A DNA stretch of 64,000 nucleotides. Origin: Candidatus Rokuibacteriota bacterium. Lineage in GTDB: Bacteria; Methylomirabilota; Methylomirabilia; Rokubacteriales; CSP1-6. The notes under the pieces are model-generated. The model was not told the DNA's origin and made no database searches. It saw only the letters and a list, made by a program, of their open reading frames with translations. Position 1 is the first letter of the stretch; every line of letters starts with the position of its first letter. Made by a program: the position numbers and the translations under genes. The stretch is from the NCBI GenBank assembly GCA_016866775.1, contig VGLJ01000016.1, positions 1 to 64,000 on the forward strand, read 5' to 3'. This document shows, one piece after another, positions 19,559-40,880 of the stretch.

Positions 19559-20187
19559 TGTACAACCCCAAGCACTTCGAGGAGACACGGGTCGACGTGC
19601 TGCACGCGCACATCCGCGCGCATCCGCTCGGCGCGCTGGTGGTGATGACGCCCGAGGGCCTCGACGCGAACCACATCCCGATCGAGGTCGATCCCGATCC
19701 GGCGCCGTTCGGCACGCTCCGCGGCCACATCGCGCGCGCGAATCCCGTCTGGCGGCAGGCGCACGAGGCGCCGGCCCTCGCGATCTTCCAGGGACCGAGC
19801 ACCTATATCTCTCCGGCGTGGTACGTCACGAAGCGCGAGACCGCCAAGGTGGTGCCGACGTGGAACTACGCGGTCGTGCACGCGCACGGCACGCTGCGCT
19901 TCATCGACGACCGCGACTGGCTCCGCGCGTTCGTCACGCGCCTGACGGACCGTCACGAAGCCGGCCGTCCCGAGCCGTGGAAGGTGACGGACGCGCCCGC
20001 CGACTACGTCGACAACATGGTCGGCGCGATCATCGGGCTCGAGCTGCCGATCGCGCGTCTCGTCGGCAAGTGGAAGGTCAGCCAGAACCGTCCGCCGCGC
20101 GACCGCGAGGGCGTCGTCGAGGGATTGGCCGCGGAGCACGGCGACGCGGGAGCCACGATGGCCGACCTGGTCCGGCGGACGCTCTAG
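19558..20187 (+). CDS. FMN-binding PaiB-like protein
   Basis: A 209-residue split-barrel flavoprotein of the PaiB (FMN-binding negative transcriptional regulator) family. Diagnostic stretches are MYNPKHFEE at the N-terminus, GPSTYISPAWYVTK, VPTWNYAVVHAHG, and GKWKVSQNR near the C-terminus. PaiB in Bacillus represses protease and sporulation genes, but most homologues are untested and may be flavin enzymes. ATG 19558 overlaps the SDR stop (TGATG). The stop overlaps the convergent LLM gene by 4 bases. Likely cytoplasmic. Confidence 0.92.
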   Translation: MYNPKHFEETRVDVLHAHIRAHPLGALVVMTPEGLDANHIPIEVDPDPAPFGTLRGHIARANPVWRQAHEAPALAIFQGPSTYISPAWYVTKRETAKVVPTWNYAVVHAHGTLRFIDDRDWLRAFVTRLTDRHEAGRPEPWKVTDAPADYVDNMVGAIIGLELPIARLVGKWKVSQNRPPRDREGVVEGLAAEHGDAGATMADLVRRTL

Positions 20188-21248
20188 CGGAAGCGCGGGA
20201 TCACGGCCTCGCCGAAGCGGCGCATCGCGTCCATCACCCGCGCGTGCGGGAGGAAGCCCACGCTCATCTGACACAGCACGTGGTGCGTGCCGGCGTCACG
20301 CATCGCCGCCACCTGCTCCGCCACGCGCGCGGGCGTGCCACAGAGTGCTGCGTTCTCGAGCGCGTAGCGCACGCCGTCCTCGTGCGAGAGCGTGGGGTCG
20401 TTCCACGGGTTCACGCGCGCCTCGGCCACGCGGAAGTCGCGCGGGTTGTGCGCGGCGCGCGCGTCGAGCTGGTGCCGTCGCGTGTCGAGCAGCGCCGCGC
20501 CCAGCTCCTCTTCGGCTTGCGCCTGGCTCTCCGCCACGTGCACCCACCGCCACACCGCGGCCTTCTCACGCAGATCGCGCTGGCTGGCGGCATCGAGCCC
20601 GCTCTCCGCGAGGCCGGCTTCATACAGCGCGAAGCGTTCCGGCAGACGCGCGAGCGGGACCCGCGCGATGAGGATCGGCGCGCCGATCCGGCCGCAGTCC
20701 TTCACGGAGCTCGCCGACGAGACCGCGCGCCAGATCGGCGGATGCGGCTGCTGGCGCGGCCGCGGGCGCAGCTCCGGCAGGCGGAGCTGGTAGAAGTTGC
20801 CGTCGTGGACGAGCGGCGTCTCCGTCCACGCGCGGATCAGGACGTCGAGCGTCTCCTCCATGCGCACGCGGCTGTCGTCGGAGCGGAGCCCGTAGCCGAC
20901 GAACTCGTACTCGTTGTAGTTCGTCCCGTGGCCGACGCCGACGTCGAGCCGGCCGTCGGAGAGGTTGTCGAGGAGCGCGAGCTGCGTCGCGAGCCGGATC
21001 GGATGACGGAGCGCGAGCTGCACCACCGCGAAGCCGATCCGAATGCGTGAGGTCTGCATGGCGATGGCGCTCGCGAACGGGATCGGATCGCAGTAGACGC
21101 TCTCGCCCGTGAAGTTGTGCTCGGTGAGCCAGATGCCGTCGAAGCCGGCGGTCTCGGCGAAGCAGGACTCCGTCAGGAGGTCCTGGATCGCCTGCTGATC
21201 CTCGTCGCCCGAGTGCGCGTGGCTGAGTGTCAGCCAGCCGAAACGCAT
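20184..21248 (-). CDS. LLM class flavin-dependent oxidoreductase
   Basis: A 354-residue luciferase-like monooxygenase with a TIM-barrel pattern: FAETAGFDGIWLTEHNF, DPIPFASAIAMQTSRIRIG and LDNLSDGRLDVGVGHG are the usual flavin-binding landmarks. Such proteins use FMNH2 or F420 with O2 or other acceptors; the substrate is unknown. Start is best at ATG 21248, overlapping the upstream LLM stop (TGATG); TTG 21251 directly before it is an alternative. It is the last gene of a coupled run of binding protein, LLM, LLM. Confidence 0.92.
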   Translation of the reverse strand: MRFGWLTLSHAHSGDEDQQAIQDLLTESCFAETAGFDGIWLTEHNFTGESVYCDPIPFASAIAMQTSRIRIGFAVVQLALRHPIRLATQLALLDNLSDGRLDVGVGHGTNYNEYEFVGYGLRSDDSRVRMEETLDVLIRAWTETPLVHDGNFYQLRLPELRPRPRQQPHPPIWRAVSSASSVKDCGRIGAPILIARVPLARLPERFALYEAGLAESGLDAASQRDLREKAAVWRWVHVAESQAQAEEELGAALLDTRRHQLDARAAHNPRDFRVAEARVNPWNDPTLSHEDGVRYALENAALCGTPARVAEQVAAMRDAGTHHVLCQMSVGFLPHARVMDAMRRFGEAVIPRFR

Positions 21249-22102
21249 CAAGCGTTGAGACCGAGCGTGCGGCCCGTATCCGCGGCGAAGCGCTCCAGCG
21301 CGGCCGTATCCATCTCGGGACGCGGCCGAAGGATCAGTCTGTCGACACCGGCACCGGCGTACGCGTCGATGATCGCCCTGTCCGGCACGCCGTAGCCGGG
21401 CGGCGTGATGCTGATCTCGAGCCGGCCCAGGTCCGCCGGCCGCGAGACCTTCTTCTCGGCGTCACGCAGCCCGTTGATCGACTTCTGCGTCTCGGCGACG
21501 TCGAGGCCGAACCCGTACCAGCCGTGCCCCTGCGTCACCGCACGGCGATACGCGGGCGGCGTGCGTCCGCCGACCACGATCGGAATCGGGTTCTGGACCG
21601 GACGCGGCATCGCCTGCACACCTTCGAACGAGACGAACGGGCCGTGATGCTTCGGCTTCGGCTGCGTCCACAGCGCGCGCATCGCCGCGAGGTAGTCGTC
21701 GCCGATGCGCCCGCGGTCCTTGAACGCGGCACCGGTCGAGCGCATCTCCGGCTCGCACCAGCCGACGCCGAGGCCGAAGATCACCCGCCCGTTCGAGAGC
21801 ACGTCGAGCGCCGCGAGCTGCTTCGCGAGCACGACCGCCTGCCGCTGCGGGAGGATGATGACGCCCGTCGCGAGCCGGATGCGCGACGTGTGCGCCGCGA
21901 GGAACGTGAGCGCGACGATCGGCTCCACCAGCCGCATGTCGGGCGGCATCGGTCGTCCCGCGACCGGCGGATCCGGCAGCACCACGTGGTCGGCCACCCA
22001 GAGCGACTCGAGTCCCGCCGCCTCGGCGGCCCGGCCGAGCCGCGCCATCGCGTCGGGGTGACCGCAGGTGTGCAGGTTGACCGAATGGAGGCCGACCTTC
22101 AC
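21248..22102 (-). CDS. LLM class (F420-dependent-type) oxidoreductase
   Basis: A 284-residue luciferase-like oxidoreductase. Flavin or F420-family landmarks include ESLWVADHVVLP, LTFLAAHTSRIRLATGVIIL, and LDVLSNGRVIFGLGVGWCEP. It is shorter than and only distantly related to its downstream neighbour, so the pair is not a recent duplication. The start is GTG 22102, overlapping the stop of the NMT1-like binding protein (GTGA). F420 use is typical of this subgroup but not provable here. The three coupled genes suggest import and oxidation of one compound. Confidence 0.92.
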   Translation of the reverse strand: MKVGLHSVNLHTCGHPDAMARLGRAAEAAGLESLWVADHVVLPDPPVAGRPMPPDMRLVEPIVALTFLAAHTSRIRLATGVIILPQRQAVVLAKQLAALDVLSNGRVIFGLGVGWCEPEMRSTGAAFKDRGRIGDDYLAAMRALWTQPKPKHHGPFVSFEGVQAMPRPVQNPIPIVVGGRTPPAYRRAVTQGHGWYGFGLDVAETQKSINGLRDAEKKVSRPADLGRLEISITPPGYGVPDRAIIDAYAGAGVDRLILRPRPEMDTAALERFAADTGRTLGLNA

Positions 22103-23019
22103 CGCGCGACCTCGTGCGCGCGGGCTTCGATCTTCCGGTCGATCTGCGTCGTGACGTCGAACGTGCCGTCGATCAGACCCCAGCTCGCCATCCACTCCCA
22201 CGCCCAGCGCGCGTCCGCCTCGGGAATGGGCGTCGGCTCTTTGAGCTGGATACGCCCGACGTTGAAGTCATCGGGCGTGAGCGACTGCACTTCGGGGCAG
22301 CCGGGGAAGTCGCGATGGAAATAGGTCATGTACCGGCGCTTGTCGGCGTTGATCAACGCGACCGCGCGCTTGATGCCGCGCAGGAGCGCCCCGTACGCGT
22401 CCGGATTCACGTCGGGAGACGCGACCCACGTGCCGTGGAAGAACGTGACGGACACGAGACGGCACCCGGCCTTCTCCGCCACCGTGATGTACGGCTCCTG
22501 GAACACGGTCGCCTCGAAGTCCCCGCGCATCAGCGCGGTGAACCGCTCGTTCGGCGGCGTCGCGGCGGGCACGGTGACGACGGCGTCGCGCGGCACCGCG
22601 CCCTCGAGCATCTGAAAGCCGGCGTACGCGGTGCCGTTGCCGTAGTCGAGGCCCACGCGCCTCCCGGCGAGATCCTGCGGAGTGTAGATGTCGGACGTCG
22701 GCGGAGCGACGAGGGCGCCACACACGACCATCGCTCGACGCCCGACCTGCAGCGCACCAACCTGGCTTCCCGCCACCCGGCGGTTATTGCCGCACTCTCA
22801 GGCCTGGTACATCGCGGCTTCGCCGCGTGCCTGGCGCCTCCCCTGGGTCGTCGCGGGATTCGTGGCCGTGCGCTGATCGAGGGGCGCGAGCGCATCGGTC
22901 ACCGGGCCGGCGATCGTGAGATCGAGGCCTTCCTCGGCGAAGAAACCCTCGTCCTTCGCCACCAGCACGTCGAGGCCGTTGAACGCCATCACCCGCTCGA
23001 TCGCCATCGTCAGCGCCAT
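22099..23019 (-). CDS. NMT1/THI5-like ABC substrate-binding protein with in-frame TGA
   Basis: A continuous 307-codon frame interrupted only by TGA at codon 74 (22800-22798). Before it the N-terminus reads FNGLDVLVAKDEGFFAEEG, and after it ECGNNRRVAGSQVGALQVG, RRVGLDYGNGTAYAGFQML and VFQEPYITVAEKAGCRLVSV, a typical NMT1-like binding domain. Both sides are in the same frame with no missing part. In relatives, as I recall, this point reads A-C-E-W-G-N, so TGA sits where Cys (TGC) is expected. It is either a nonsense mutation, a sequencing error or a selenocysteine codon; a hairpin follows at SECIS-like distance. Start ATG 23019 has AAGGAGG 8 bases before it. No signal peptide is seen, which is not unusual in this subgroup. 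It is coupled to the LLM gene. Confidence 0.75.
22770..22783 (-). promoter_or_regulatory. SECIS-like hairpin after the in-frame TGA
   Basis: On the coding strand CCGCC-GGGT-GGCGG forms a perfect 5-bp stem with a 4-base loop, beginning 15 bases after the TGA at 22798. The loop starts 20 bases after the TGA with GG, within the distance and loop rules usually given for bacterial SECIS elements. Short GC hairpins are frequent in this genome, so this alone is weak evidence. Confidence 0.3.
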
Positions 23020-23081
23020 CGCCGAGGCCTCCTTGAACCCGTCCGGAATGTGGGGCCATGATACGCCCGCGGAGGGACGCG

Positions 23082-23549
23082 ATGGCCACCTTCACGCTCA
23101 ACGTCAACGGAGCCGCCCGGCAGGTCACGCTCGAGCCCGACGCCCCGCTGCTCTACGTCCTGCGCAACGACCTCGAGCTGAACGGGCCCAAGTTCGGCTG
23201 CGGGCTCGCGCAGTGCGGCGCGTGCTCGGTGCTCGTCGACGGCAAGGAAGTCCGGTCGTGCGTGACACCCGTCTCCGCCGTCGCGAAGAGCCGGATCACG
23301 ACGATCGAAGGCCTCGGCACCCTGGACAAGCTCCATCCGCTGCAGCGCGCGTTCATCGAGGAGCAGGCGTGCCAGTGCGGGTTCTGCGGCAGCGGCATGG
23401 TGATGGCGGCCAAGGCGCTGCTCGACCGCAATCCCGCGCCGACCAATCACGAGATCCGGCAGGCGCTGAACGGGCACCTGTGCCGGTGCGCCTCGCACAC
23501 GCGCATCGTGCGCGCGGTGCAGCGCGCCGCGAAGGAGCTCCGGGCATGA
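23082..23549 (+). CDS. (2Fe-2S)-binding subunit of a molybdenum hydroxylase (IorA-like)
   Basis: A 155-residue small subunit of the xanthine-oxidase family carrying two [2Fe-2S] clusters. The plant-ferredoxin-type site has Cys40, Cys45, Cys48 (CGLAQCGAC) and Cys60; the second site has CQCGFC (Cys99, Cys102) and CRC (Cys134, Cys136). It passes electrons from the molybdenum centre. Start ATG 23082 follows GGAGGG. The stop overlaps the large-subunit start as ATGA. No FAD subunit is adjacent, as in isoquinoline 1-oxidoreductase and aldehyde oxidoreductase pairs. It is divergent from the NMT1-like gene. Confidence 0.95.
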   Translation: MATFTLNVNGAARQVTLEPDAPLLYVLRNDLELNGPKFGCGLAQCGACSVLVDGKEVRSCVTPVSAVAKSRITTIEGLGTLDKLHPLQRAFIEEQACQCGFCGSGMVMAAKALLDRNPAPTNHEIRQALNGHLCRCASHTRIVRAVQRAAKELRA

Positions 23550-25780
23550 GCACGTCACGCCGCGACTTCCTCAAGACGGGTGGCGCGCTGGTGGTCGGCT
23601 TCACCCTGGTGCCGCGGCTCGCGGGCGCACAGCCCGCACGCTTGCCCGGCAGCCTCAACGGCAATCGCCGGCTCGACGCGTGGATCGCGATCGAGCCGAA
23701 CGGCCGGGTGACCATCTTCACGGGCAAGATCGAGCTCGGCCAGGGCATCGGCACCGCGCTCTCGCAGATCGCGGCCGACGAGCTGGACGTAGAGCTCGCG
23801 CGGATCGACGTCGTGCACGGCGACACCGCGTGCACGCCGAACGAAGGTCAGACGGCGGGTAGCCTGTCCGTCGAGCAGAGCGGCACGGCGGTGCGCTTCG
23901 CGTGCGCCGAGGCGCGCCACATCCTGCTGTCGGCAGCCGCGAGCAAGCTCGGCGCGCCGGCGACGGAGCTCAAGGTCAGCGACGGCACCGTCGCCGCGCC
24001 CGGCGGCGCGAGCGTGACGTACTGGGATCTCGCAAGCGCCGCGGACTTCAAGCGCGAGGCGAGCGCGAAGGTCACGCCGAAGCCGGCGTCCGCACGCAAG
24101 TGGGTCGGCAAGAGCGTCGGCCGCCGCGACATCCCGAAGAAGTTCACGGGCGGCGCCGCGTACGTGCAGGACCTCCGCCTGCCGCGGATGCTCTTCGGCC
24201 GCGTGGTGCGTCCGCCGTCGCCCGGCGCGACGCTCACCGCCGTCGATGAGGGCGCGGTGAAGCGGCTGCCGGGCGTCGTCGCGGTCGTGCGCGACGGCAA
24301 CTTCCTCGCGGTCGCGGCGGAGCGCGAGGAGCAGGCGATCCGCGCGCGCGAGACGCTCAAGCGCACGGCGAAGTGGACCGAGACGGCGTCGCTCGAGCCG
24401 TCGGGCGACGCGTTGTTCCGGCACTTGATGAGCGCCACGGCGCCCGCGCACACCGTGGTCGACAAGACGTCGCCGATCGCCGCGACACCCGCGAAGACGC
24501 TCGAAGCCGTCTACACGCGCCCGTACCAGTGCCACGCGTCGCTCGGTCCGTCGTGCGCCGTCGCGCAGTGGCAGGAGGGCGCGCTCACGGTGTGGACGCA
24601 CAGCCAGGGCGTGTTCCCGCTGCGCGCGGACCTCGCCAAGGCGTTCGCGATCGACGCGAAGCGCATCCGCTGCATCCACGCCGAGGGCGCCGGCTGCTAC
24701 GGCCACAACGGCGCGGACGACGTGGCGCTCGACGCGGCGCTGCTCGCGCGCGCCGTCGACGGCCGCCCCGTGAAGGTCCAGTGGATGCGCGACGACGAGT
24801 TCCAGTGGGAGCCGTACGGCTCGGCCATGGTGATGAAGCTCGCCGGCGGTGTCGACGCGCAGGGCCACGTCGTCGCGTGGTCTCACGAGGTGTGGAGTCA
24901 TCCGCACAGCACGCGGCCCGGCTCGTCGAGCGGCGTCAGCCTGCTCGCGGCGCGCCACCTCGCCGGTGCCTCGCCGCCGCCTCCGCCGAACGACGTTCCG
25001 CAACCGGCAGGCGGCTCGGATCGCAACGCCGTCCCGCTCTACGAGTTCTCGTCGGTGAAGGTCGTCAAGCACTTCATCGTGGACGCGCCGCTGCGCACGT
25101 CCGCGCTCCGCACGCTCGGCGGCTACGCGAACGTGTTCGCGGCCGAGTCGTTCGTCGACGAGCTGGCGGCGGCGGCGGGCGTCGACCCCGTGGAGTTCCG
25201 TCTCCGGCATCTCAAGGATCCACGAGCCCGCGCCGTCGTCGAGGCCGCGGCGCGGCGCGCGGGCTGGCAGCCGAGGGGGGGTGGGGGTCCTCGGTTGCGG
25301 GGCCCCCATGCGCAAGGAAGCGGCTTCGCGTATTCGCGCTACAAGAACCTCGCGTGCTACTGCGCGACGGCCGCGGAGGTCGAGGTCGAACGCGCGACGG
25401 GCCGCGTGCGCGTCACCCGCGTCGTGGCCGCCGTCGATGCCGGCCAGATCGTCAATCCGGACGGCGTCGTCAACCAGATCGAAGGCGGCGTGATCCAGTC
25501 CGCGAGCTGGACCTTGAAGGAGGCCGTGGGCTTCGACCGCACGCGCGTCACCACGCGGTCCTGGGCCGACTATCCGATCCTGCGCTTCGACGAGGTTCCC
25601 GACGTGGAGGTGGTGCTCCTCGATCAGCCGAACGAGCGGTTCCTCGGCGTGGGCGAGGGATCACAGGGACCCGCCGTCGCCGCGATTGCCAACGCGATCG
25701 CGCACGCGACGGGTACGCGCCTGCGCGCGCTCCCGTTCACGCCGGAGCGCGTGAAGCAGGCGCTGTCGGCGAAGGGCTGA
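23546..25780 (+). CDS. molybdopterin-binding subunit (IorB-like), Tat-exported
   Basis: A 744-residue molybdopterin cytosine dinucleotide-binding subunit. The N-terminus SRRDFLKTGGALVVGF is a twin-arginine signal, so the enzyme is exported folded with its cofactors. Landmarks include GKIELGQGIGTALSQIAADE, GHNGADDVALDAALLA, RTSALRTLGGYANVFA, and GVGEGSQGPAVAAIANA with the catalytic Glu. Together with the upstream 2Fe-2S protein it would hydroxylate an N-heterocycle or oxidise an aldehyde. A G-rich repeat at about 25274-25309 is inserted in frame (encoding PRGGGGPRLRGPHAQ) in a surface-type region. It converges on the family-5 binding protein across a strong hairpin. Confidence 0.94.
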   Translation: MSTSRRDFLKTGGALVVGFTLVPRLAGAQPARLPGSLNGNRRLDAWIAIEPNGRVTIFTGKIELGQGIGTALSQIAADELDVELARIDVVHGDTACTPNEGQTAGSLSVEQSGTAVRFACAEARHILLSAAASKLGAPATELKVSDGTVAAPGGASVTYWDLASAADFKREASAKVTPKPASARKWVGKSVGRRDIPKKFTGGAAYVQDLRLPRMLFGRVVRPPSPGATLTAVDEGAVKRLPGVVAVVRDGNFLAVAAEREEQAIRARETLKRTAKWTETASLEPSGDALFRHLMSATAPAHTVVDKTSPIAATPAKTLEAVYTRPYQCHASLGPSCAVAQWQEGALTVWTHSQGVFPLRADLAKAFAIDAKRIRCIHAEGAGCYGHNGADDVALDAALLARAVDGRPVKVQWMRDDEFQWEPYGSAMVMKLAGGVDAQGHVVAWSHEVWSHPHSTRPGSSSGVSLLAARHLAGASPPPPPNDVPQPAGGSDRNAVPLYEFSSVKVVKHFIVDAPLRTSALRTLGGYANVFAAESFVDELAAAAGVDPVEFRLRHLKDPRARAVVEAAARRAGWQPRGGGGPRLRGPHAQGSGFAYSRYKNLACYCATAAEVEVERATGRVRVTRVVAAVDAGQIVNPDGVVNQIEGGVIQSASWTLKEAVGFDRTRVTTRSWADYPILRFDEVPDVEVVLLDQPNERFLGVGEGSQGPAVAAIANAIAHATGTRLRALPFTPERVKQALSAKG
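25274..25309 (+). repeat. G-rich dispersed repeat, copy 1 (partial)
   Basis: A run of G7, then TGGGGG, a spacer, and GGGGCCCCCATG, lying in frame inside the molybdopterin subunit gene. It matches the distal half of the fuller copies at 30167-30247 (opposite orientation) and 51986-52062 (same orientation). The conserved end is GCCCCCATG preceded by two G-runs. Confidence 0.45.
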
Positions 25781-40420: not shown

Positions 40421-40880
40421 TGCCGGGCTCATGGATCGGATGTTCCAGCGGATCATGCGCGGGCTCGTCGACACGGGCGTAGCACCGCATTACGCGGAGC
40501 GCGCGCGCGCACTCGGCGTGTCCGTCGAGGAGGGCCGCCAGCTCCTCCACGGCGTCATGGAGGCCTATCCCATCGGCTGGCTCCATCCCGAGACCGACTA
40601 CATCGCGTCGTTCCCGCCGCTCAACAACCTGCCCACGCAGTACCGCGTCACCGTGCGCGGCGAGCAGCGGTGGTTCGCGCAATGCGGGTTCGAGGCCACG
40701 TCGGTCACGTGGCTGTTCCCCGGCGAGACCGTCCGGATCGACGCGCCGTGCCCCGACTGCGGCGATCCGGTCAGCGTCGAGATGCGCGACGGGCAGATCC
40801 TCTGGGTGGATCCGCCGGGCGTCGTCGGCCACCTGAACTACGGCTTCGGCGCCTCGCGCGGGCGCCCGTCGTTCCTCTGA
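40413..40880 (+). CDS. MerB-like (alkylmercury lyase-like) N-terminal half
   Basis: A 155-residue protein: an N-terminal helical part (HYAERARALGVSVEEGRQLL) and then a segment recalling the MerB fold: YRVTVRGEQRWFAQCGFEAT, then VRIDAPCPDCGDPVSV. MerB cleaves C-Hg bonds using paired Cys residues; here Cys occur at similar places (AQCGF and PCPDCG), but the C-terminal part of MerB is missing and is encoded by the next gene. In a CoA-transferase/ABC operon a mercury role is doubtful; a related protonolysis or isomerisation of an organic acid is more likely. Resemblance is by eye. Confidence 0.6.
   Translation: MADAGLMDRMFQRIMRGLVDTGVAPHYAERARALGVSVEEGRQLLHGVMEAYPIGWLHPETDYIASFPPLNNLPTQYRVTVRGEQRWFAQCGFEATSVTWLFPGETVRIDAPCPDCGDPVSVEMRDGQILWVDPPGVVGHLNYGFGASRGRPSFL

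Follow-up and report, generated by a model that had tools for sequence, protein, structure and literature searches.

The window, a 64,000-nt stretch of contig VGLJ01000016.1 from a Candidatus Rokuibacteriota assembly (GCA_016866775.1), carries on its minus strand a gene at 22099–23019 that is best read as encoding a cytosolic, NMT1/SsuA-like selenoprotein of 306 residues including selenocysteine (Sec) 74, a reading based on its frame, its Pfam profile match, its predicted structure and its orthologues. The frame opens at an ATG at 23019 and comprises 306 sense codons followed by a TGA stop at 22099–22101; as the original prediction described, it is a single frame broken only by the TGA at codon 74 (22798–22800), and the residue two positions on is Cys (codon 76, 22792–22794), which gives the sequence U-E-C and thus a U-x-C pattern. 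A ribosome-binding site (AAGGAGG, 23028–23034), 8 nt upstream of the ATG, backs this start, and the protein is therefore without a signal peptide. None was found in any orthologue either; judged by eye, where a start codon is backed by a ribosome-binding site, the first strand begins right at the N-terminus. Two genes of the luciferase-like (LLM) flavin monooxygenase family follow on the same strand (21248–22201 and 20184–21251), the first of which is not conserved beside the orthologues. Divergent from the selenoprotein gene, at 23058–25780 on the plus strand, by-eye reading of the translation shows frames for a 2Fe-2S small subunit and a large molybdenum hydroxylase of the CoxL/xanthine dehydrogenase type. 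Elsewhere in the window, an in-frame TGA at 40878–40880 (plus strand) lies between two frames with coding-like GC3 and is accompanied by a SECIS-like hairpin (CTCTTCC-GGTC-GGAAGAG); this TGA is probably an ordinary stop, at which one gene ends and is followed by an in-frame start (MNLFRSEEHA).

The source genome (G000; Methylomirabilota, Rokubacteria; 5.13 Mb, 97.5% complete) was checked for selA, selB, selC and selD, and all four are present. The genes for SelA, SelB and tRNA-Sec (selC, anticodon TCA) are clustered within 4.3 kb on contig C43, and selD (L138, G000:C31:24695-25639) is itself a selenoprotein gene, with one in-frame TGA (SCAGUASK) and, downstream of it, a strong SECIS-like hairpin (CTCCTGGA-GATC-TCCAGGAG) at a loop spacing of 20–21 nt. 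Across the phylum, tRNA-Sec was found in 77 of 95 genomes; among the 12 genomes with orthologues of the window gene it was not detected at the threshold used in two, G007 and G083, both of which are fragmented MAGs. That UGA is instead read as another amino acid such as Trp, through a changed code or a suppressor, can be given almost no weight: Trp and Cys codons lie one base from TGA and the Cys-type homologues have Trp two residues on, but the residue aligned with the TGA is always Cys and never Trp, no TGA interrupts the frames of selA, selB or the paralogues, the selenoprotein gene itself ends in TGA, and apart from it an interrupting TGA was noted in this genome in selD alone, which is a classical selenoprotein gene.

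Orthologues of the window gene were identified in 12 of the 95 genomes of the phylum, the source genome included, and represent 12 species from several genera in separate assemblies; GTDB records describe eight of these genomes as Candidatus Rokuibacteriota MAGs of soil and groundwater origin. Complete orthologues are 64–71% identical. All 12 carry TGA at the same codon and none carries Cys there, and each of the 11 orthologues other than the window gene has exactly one in-frame TGA. More distant homologous stretches from other GTDB loci (36–44% identity, one at 28%) have TGC or TGT in 87 of 87 cases, so that among rows from GTDB loci the column holds 8 TGA, 74 TGC, 13 TGT and no other codon; the GTDB search used two patterns, one of which required Cys at this column and biases the count, so that the all-Cys result outside Rokubacteria depends on the second pattern and on the whole-genome searches within the phylum, which are free of that bias. 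The source genome also encodes two paralogues with Cys, L010 (G000:C9:46458-47372) and L011 (G000:C13:25216-26079), which are 42% and 34% identical; as Sec and Cys forms coexist in one genome, they have presumably diverged in function. These results agree with the earlier expectation of Cys at this position, and the proposed search of close relatives for TGA/TGC alternation placed TGA in all close orthologues and TGC or TGT in the distant homologues.

The Sec sequences form one clade (support 100/99), and a second column divides the family along the same line without exception, with UxC in the 8 Sec rows and CxW in the 87 Cys rows; residue 76 is Cys in all Sec orthologues (U-E-C-G-N) and Trp in all 87 Cys-type stretches (C-E-W-G). 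The TGC found here in place of TGG had been counted against Sec in the original prediction, an argument that does not hold: because Cys at the +2 position is fixed in the Sec clade and Trp in the Cys homologues, Cys76 is part of the Sec form and not a product of decay. The large Cys family occurs in Alphaproteobacteria and SAR202 Chloroflexi, and on several, mostly alphaproteobacterial, contigs three of its paralogues lie within about 13 kb (L089, L110, L116, L117, L123, L127, L128), a local expansion. One further copy in the phylum, on G007:C262, was considered as a Sec form and rejected, as it is of the Cys type (NACEWGN) and its TGA lies elsewhere than the Sec site; this copy (L032/L039, G007:C262:3095-3821) is broken across frames and is either a pseudogene or an assembly frameshift.

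A putative bacterial SECIS hairpin, CCGCC-GGGU-GGCGG, occupies positions 22770–22783 on the minus strand. It begins at the 15th base beyond the TGA (14 nt between), at the distance given in the original prediction and within the SECIS range. Published limits for bSECIS elements comprise a loop of 3–9 nt, a stem of 4–16 bp, a G in the first two loop positions, a spacing of 16–37 nt and a minimum free energy of −7.5 kcal/mol or lower (PMC13188914); the window hairpin falls within all of them, with a 4-nt loop beginning GG, a 5-bp stem, a TGA-to-loop spacing of 19 nt and, folded alone, −8.3 kcal/mol. The accompanying caution that GC-rich DNA often forms such hairpins was well placed, as the loose limits are satisfied at 16% of positions drawn at random from this GC-rich window, and we therefore set the hairpin by itself aside as proof. 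A strict form, with an unbroken stem of 5 bp or more, a short GG or GU loop and close spacing, occurs at 0.4–0.6% of window positions. Compared with shuffled sequences, the folding energy of stretches from the TGA onward was unremarkable (z of −0.7 to −1.9), with no unusual stability for GC-rich DNA. The hairpin is identical in all 12 orthologues, leaving no variation on which covariation could show.

Synonymous sites over the same region are extremely conserved. Among the Sec orthologues, 97% of synonymous comparisons are identical at codons 75–85 (22765–22797, minus strand), which cover the hairpin, vs 67% over the whole gene, a level that 20,000 randomly drawn sets of 11 codons never reached and 2 of 2,000 gene shuffles did; the conservation stops sharply at codon 86. 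Codon conservation of this kind is not needed for the protein alone but is needed for an RNA element, and so points to one.

The original prediction had held a nonsense mutation or an error to be at least as likely as Sec. A lone TGA in an otherwise open frame does resemble a fresh lesion, and the source genome alone could not tell the two apart; however, the identical TGA stands in 12 species of several genera, and its presence in the assemblies of all 12 excludes a base-calling error. Conservation after the TGA equals or exceeds that before it (67–75% vs 45–61% identity to the window protein), which indicates that the downstream part is under selection, and synonymous sites just after the TGA are near-invariant. 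These observations leave hardly any credence for a nonsense lesion in a gene under decay, or for an error of sequencing or assembly. Of the three refuting results named in the original prediction, none occurred.

Profile searches place the encoded protein near the NMT1/SsuA group. It matches the Pfam NMT1 profile (1e-7) and TauA (7e-4), and the sole match in the NCBIfam scan was a weak one to TIGR01728, the SsuA family (1.7e-4); no selenoprotein model was matched in that scan. AlphaFold2 (AF2) confidently predicts a single compact chain with the binding-protein fold (pLDDT 92.5, pTM 0.90), in which Sec74 closes a strand (70–74) and stands at the start of a helix (75–84). The nearest solved structures are thiamine (precursor) and formylpyrimidine receptors, SsuA, TauA, and the enzymes DszB and Thi5. 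This structure bears on a third alternative, that the locus is a split gene producing a 73-residue peptide and a second protein from a GTG at 22776, the two halves assembling. The downstream frame does have this GTG start of its own (22099–22776), but the break would fall inside a strand–helix unit of one compact predicted fold, the TGA lies exactly on an invariant Cys column, between the TGA and any restart both the residues and the synonymous sites are conserved, and the Sec machinery of the genome is complete. We consider a split gene very improbable.

On comparative grounds, then, UGA codon 74 almost certainly encodes Sec and the gene encodes a true selenoprotein with SelB-directed insertion; the proof we would offer is the TGA shared by 12 orthologues and the extreme synonymous conservation over codons 75–85. 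Decoding of the UGA would fall to SelB and Sec-tRNA-Sec, with the hairpin 14 nt downstream giving the signal. The product would be a cytosolic protein of two-lobed NMT1/SsuA-type fold, as the predicted structure and the N-terminus suggest, in which Sec74 at the strand end and helix start takes the place of an invariant Cys, and Cys76 that of an invariant Trp, to give the U-x-C motif. The product most likely functions as an enzyme rather than a transport receptor: Sec74 may act on a bound substrate, a small organic acid or an aromatic compound, either as nucleophile or as a redox-active residue, and may be resolved by Cys76 as a selenenylsulfide. This enzymatic U-x-C mechanism, suggested by the motif, its location and analogy of fold, has about an even chance.

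The analogy is provided by binding-protein folds that serve as enzymes. DszB, the 2′-hydroxybiphenyl-2-sulfinate desulfinase (PDB 2de2, 2de3), is a cytosolic enzyme with this fold, and its Cys27 is essential; a C27S mutant is named in a PDB title. The DszB pathway includes a DszA-type flavin monooxygenase, with which the LLM genes at the window locus may be compared. DszB is, however, only 14–15% identical to the window protein, its Cys27 lies near the N-terminus at a position unlike that of Sec74, and the orthologues are without a dsz-like operon. The HMP-phosphate synthase Thi5/NMT1 (PDB 4h67, 4esx) is likewise an enzyme on a binding-protein scaffold of the same superfamily, with 12–15% identity and a likeness that rests on overall fold. 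The sulfonate and taurine receptors SsuA and TauA are the best neighbours at the level of sequence and have a similar fold, but they are periplasmic receptors, whereas the window protein has no signal peptide and its family has a U/C-E-x-G-N motif, with Sec or Cys in first place.

A different role is conceivable for the same selenoprotein, namely that it is a binding or transport component in which Sec binds a ligand or metal, as has been suggested for SaoX and SaoB. This alternative concerns only the functional half of our interpretation, and we regard it as a serious possibility, if on balance a doubtful one. The fold and annotation of the window protein are those of ABC substrate-binding proteins, and the Sec-containing receptors SaoX, SaoB and BtuF have already been catalogued. 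SaoX (NF040735) and SaoB (NF040727) resemble the window protein in carrying Sec in a protein annotated as an ABC-transporter substrate-binding subunit; they differ in motif (UxP and CUxxT vs UxC), neither profile matched here (both models are assumed to be present in the NCBIfam release), and the window protein is without transporter partner genes. The signal peptide is absent throughout the orthologues, most of which lack adjacent transporter genes, and this argues against a binding role; in a survey of nine loci for adjacent permease or ATPase genes, permease genes were present beside L062 only. The Cys homologues also adjoin separate TctC, DctP or ABC receptors, or receptor-permease sets, which further argues against the family being the receptor itself.

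We sought a conserved gene neighbourhood among the orthologues and found none; surroundings vary, and any assignment to a pathway is therefore a guess. The other Sec orthologues have as neighbours a zinc alcohol dehydrogenase, UbiD, a 3-hydroxyisobutyrate-type dehydrogenase, an amidohydrolase and another NMT1 receptor. Beside the Cys homologues lie Rieske and ring-hydroxylating oxygenases, a double-cupin protein, an amidohydrolase, an amidase and an LLM monooxygenase. This company suggests, but does not prove, a part in the catabolism of aromatic or organic acids imported by other proteins. Returning to the enzymatic interpretation, we tentatively put forward, as an idea that may well prove wrong, that this is the first cytosolic selenoenzyme on a periplasmic-binding-protein scaffold, and that a lineage of Rokubacteria replaced an invariant C-x-W in the active site by U-x-C and thereby moved from Cys-based chemistry on an organic or aromatic acid to a redox reaction that depends on selenium.

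The window protein has the general features of bacterial selenoproteins as a class, with an in-frame TGA at a Cys position, a downstream bSECIS-like hairpin, Cys homologues elsewhere and a genome equipped with the Sec machinery. Among the 119 families of prokaryotic selenoproteins catalogued in May 2026 are the binding proteins SaoX, SaoB and BtuF, but no NMT1/SsuA-like U-x-C family (PMC13188914). We therefore propose a new selenoprotein family. The gene may still stand in an unnamed list or supplement of an earlier study, for example the one, cited in that review, that predicted 63 selenoproteins in a Methylomirabilota MAG (PMC13188914).

The phylum was singled out in the 2026 review for its very large predicted selenoproteome (PMC13188914), to which our analysis adds a family of selenoproteins found in a lineage that is uncultivated but widespread in soil and groundwater. 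Ordinary gene finders break such genes at the TGA, leaving them truncated or in two pieces. The paired change from C-x-W to U-x-C in one clade constitutes a natural experiment on the benefit of selenium to a protein, in which the Cys family can be tested in parallel.
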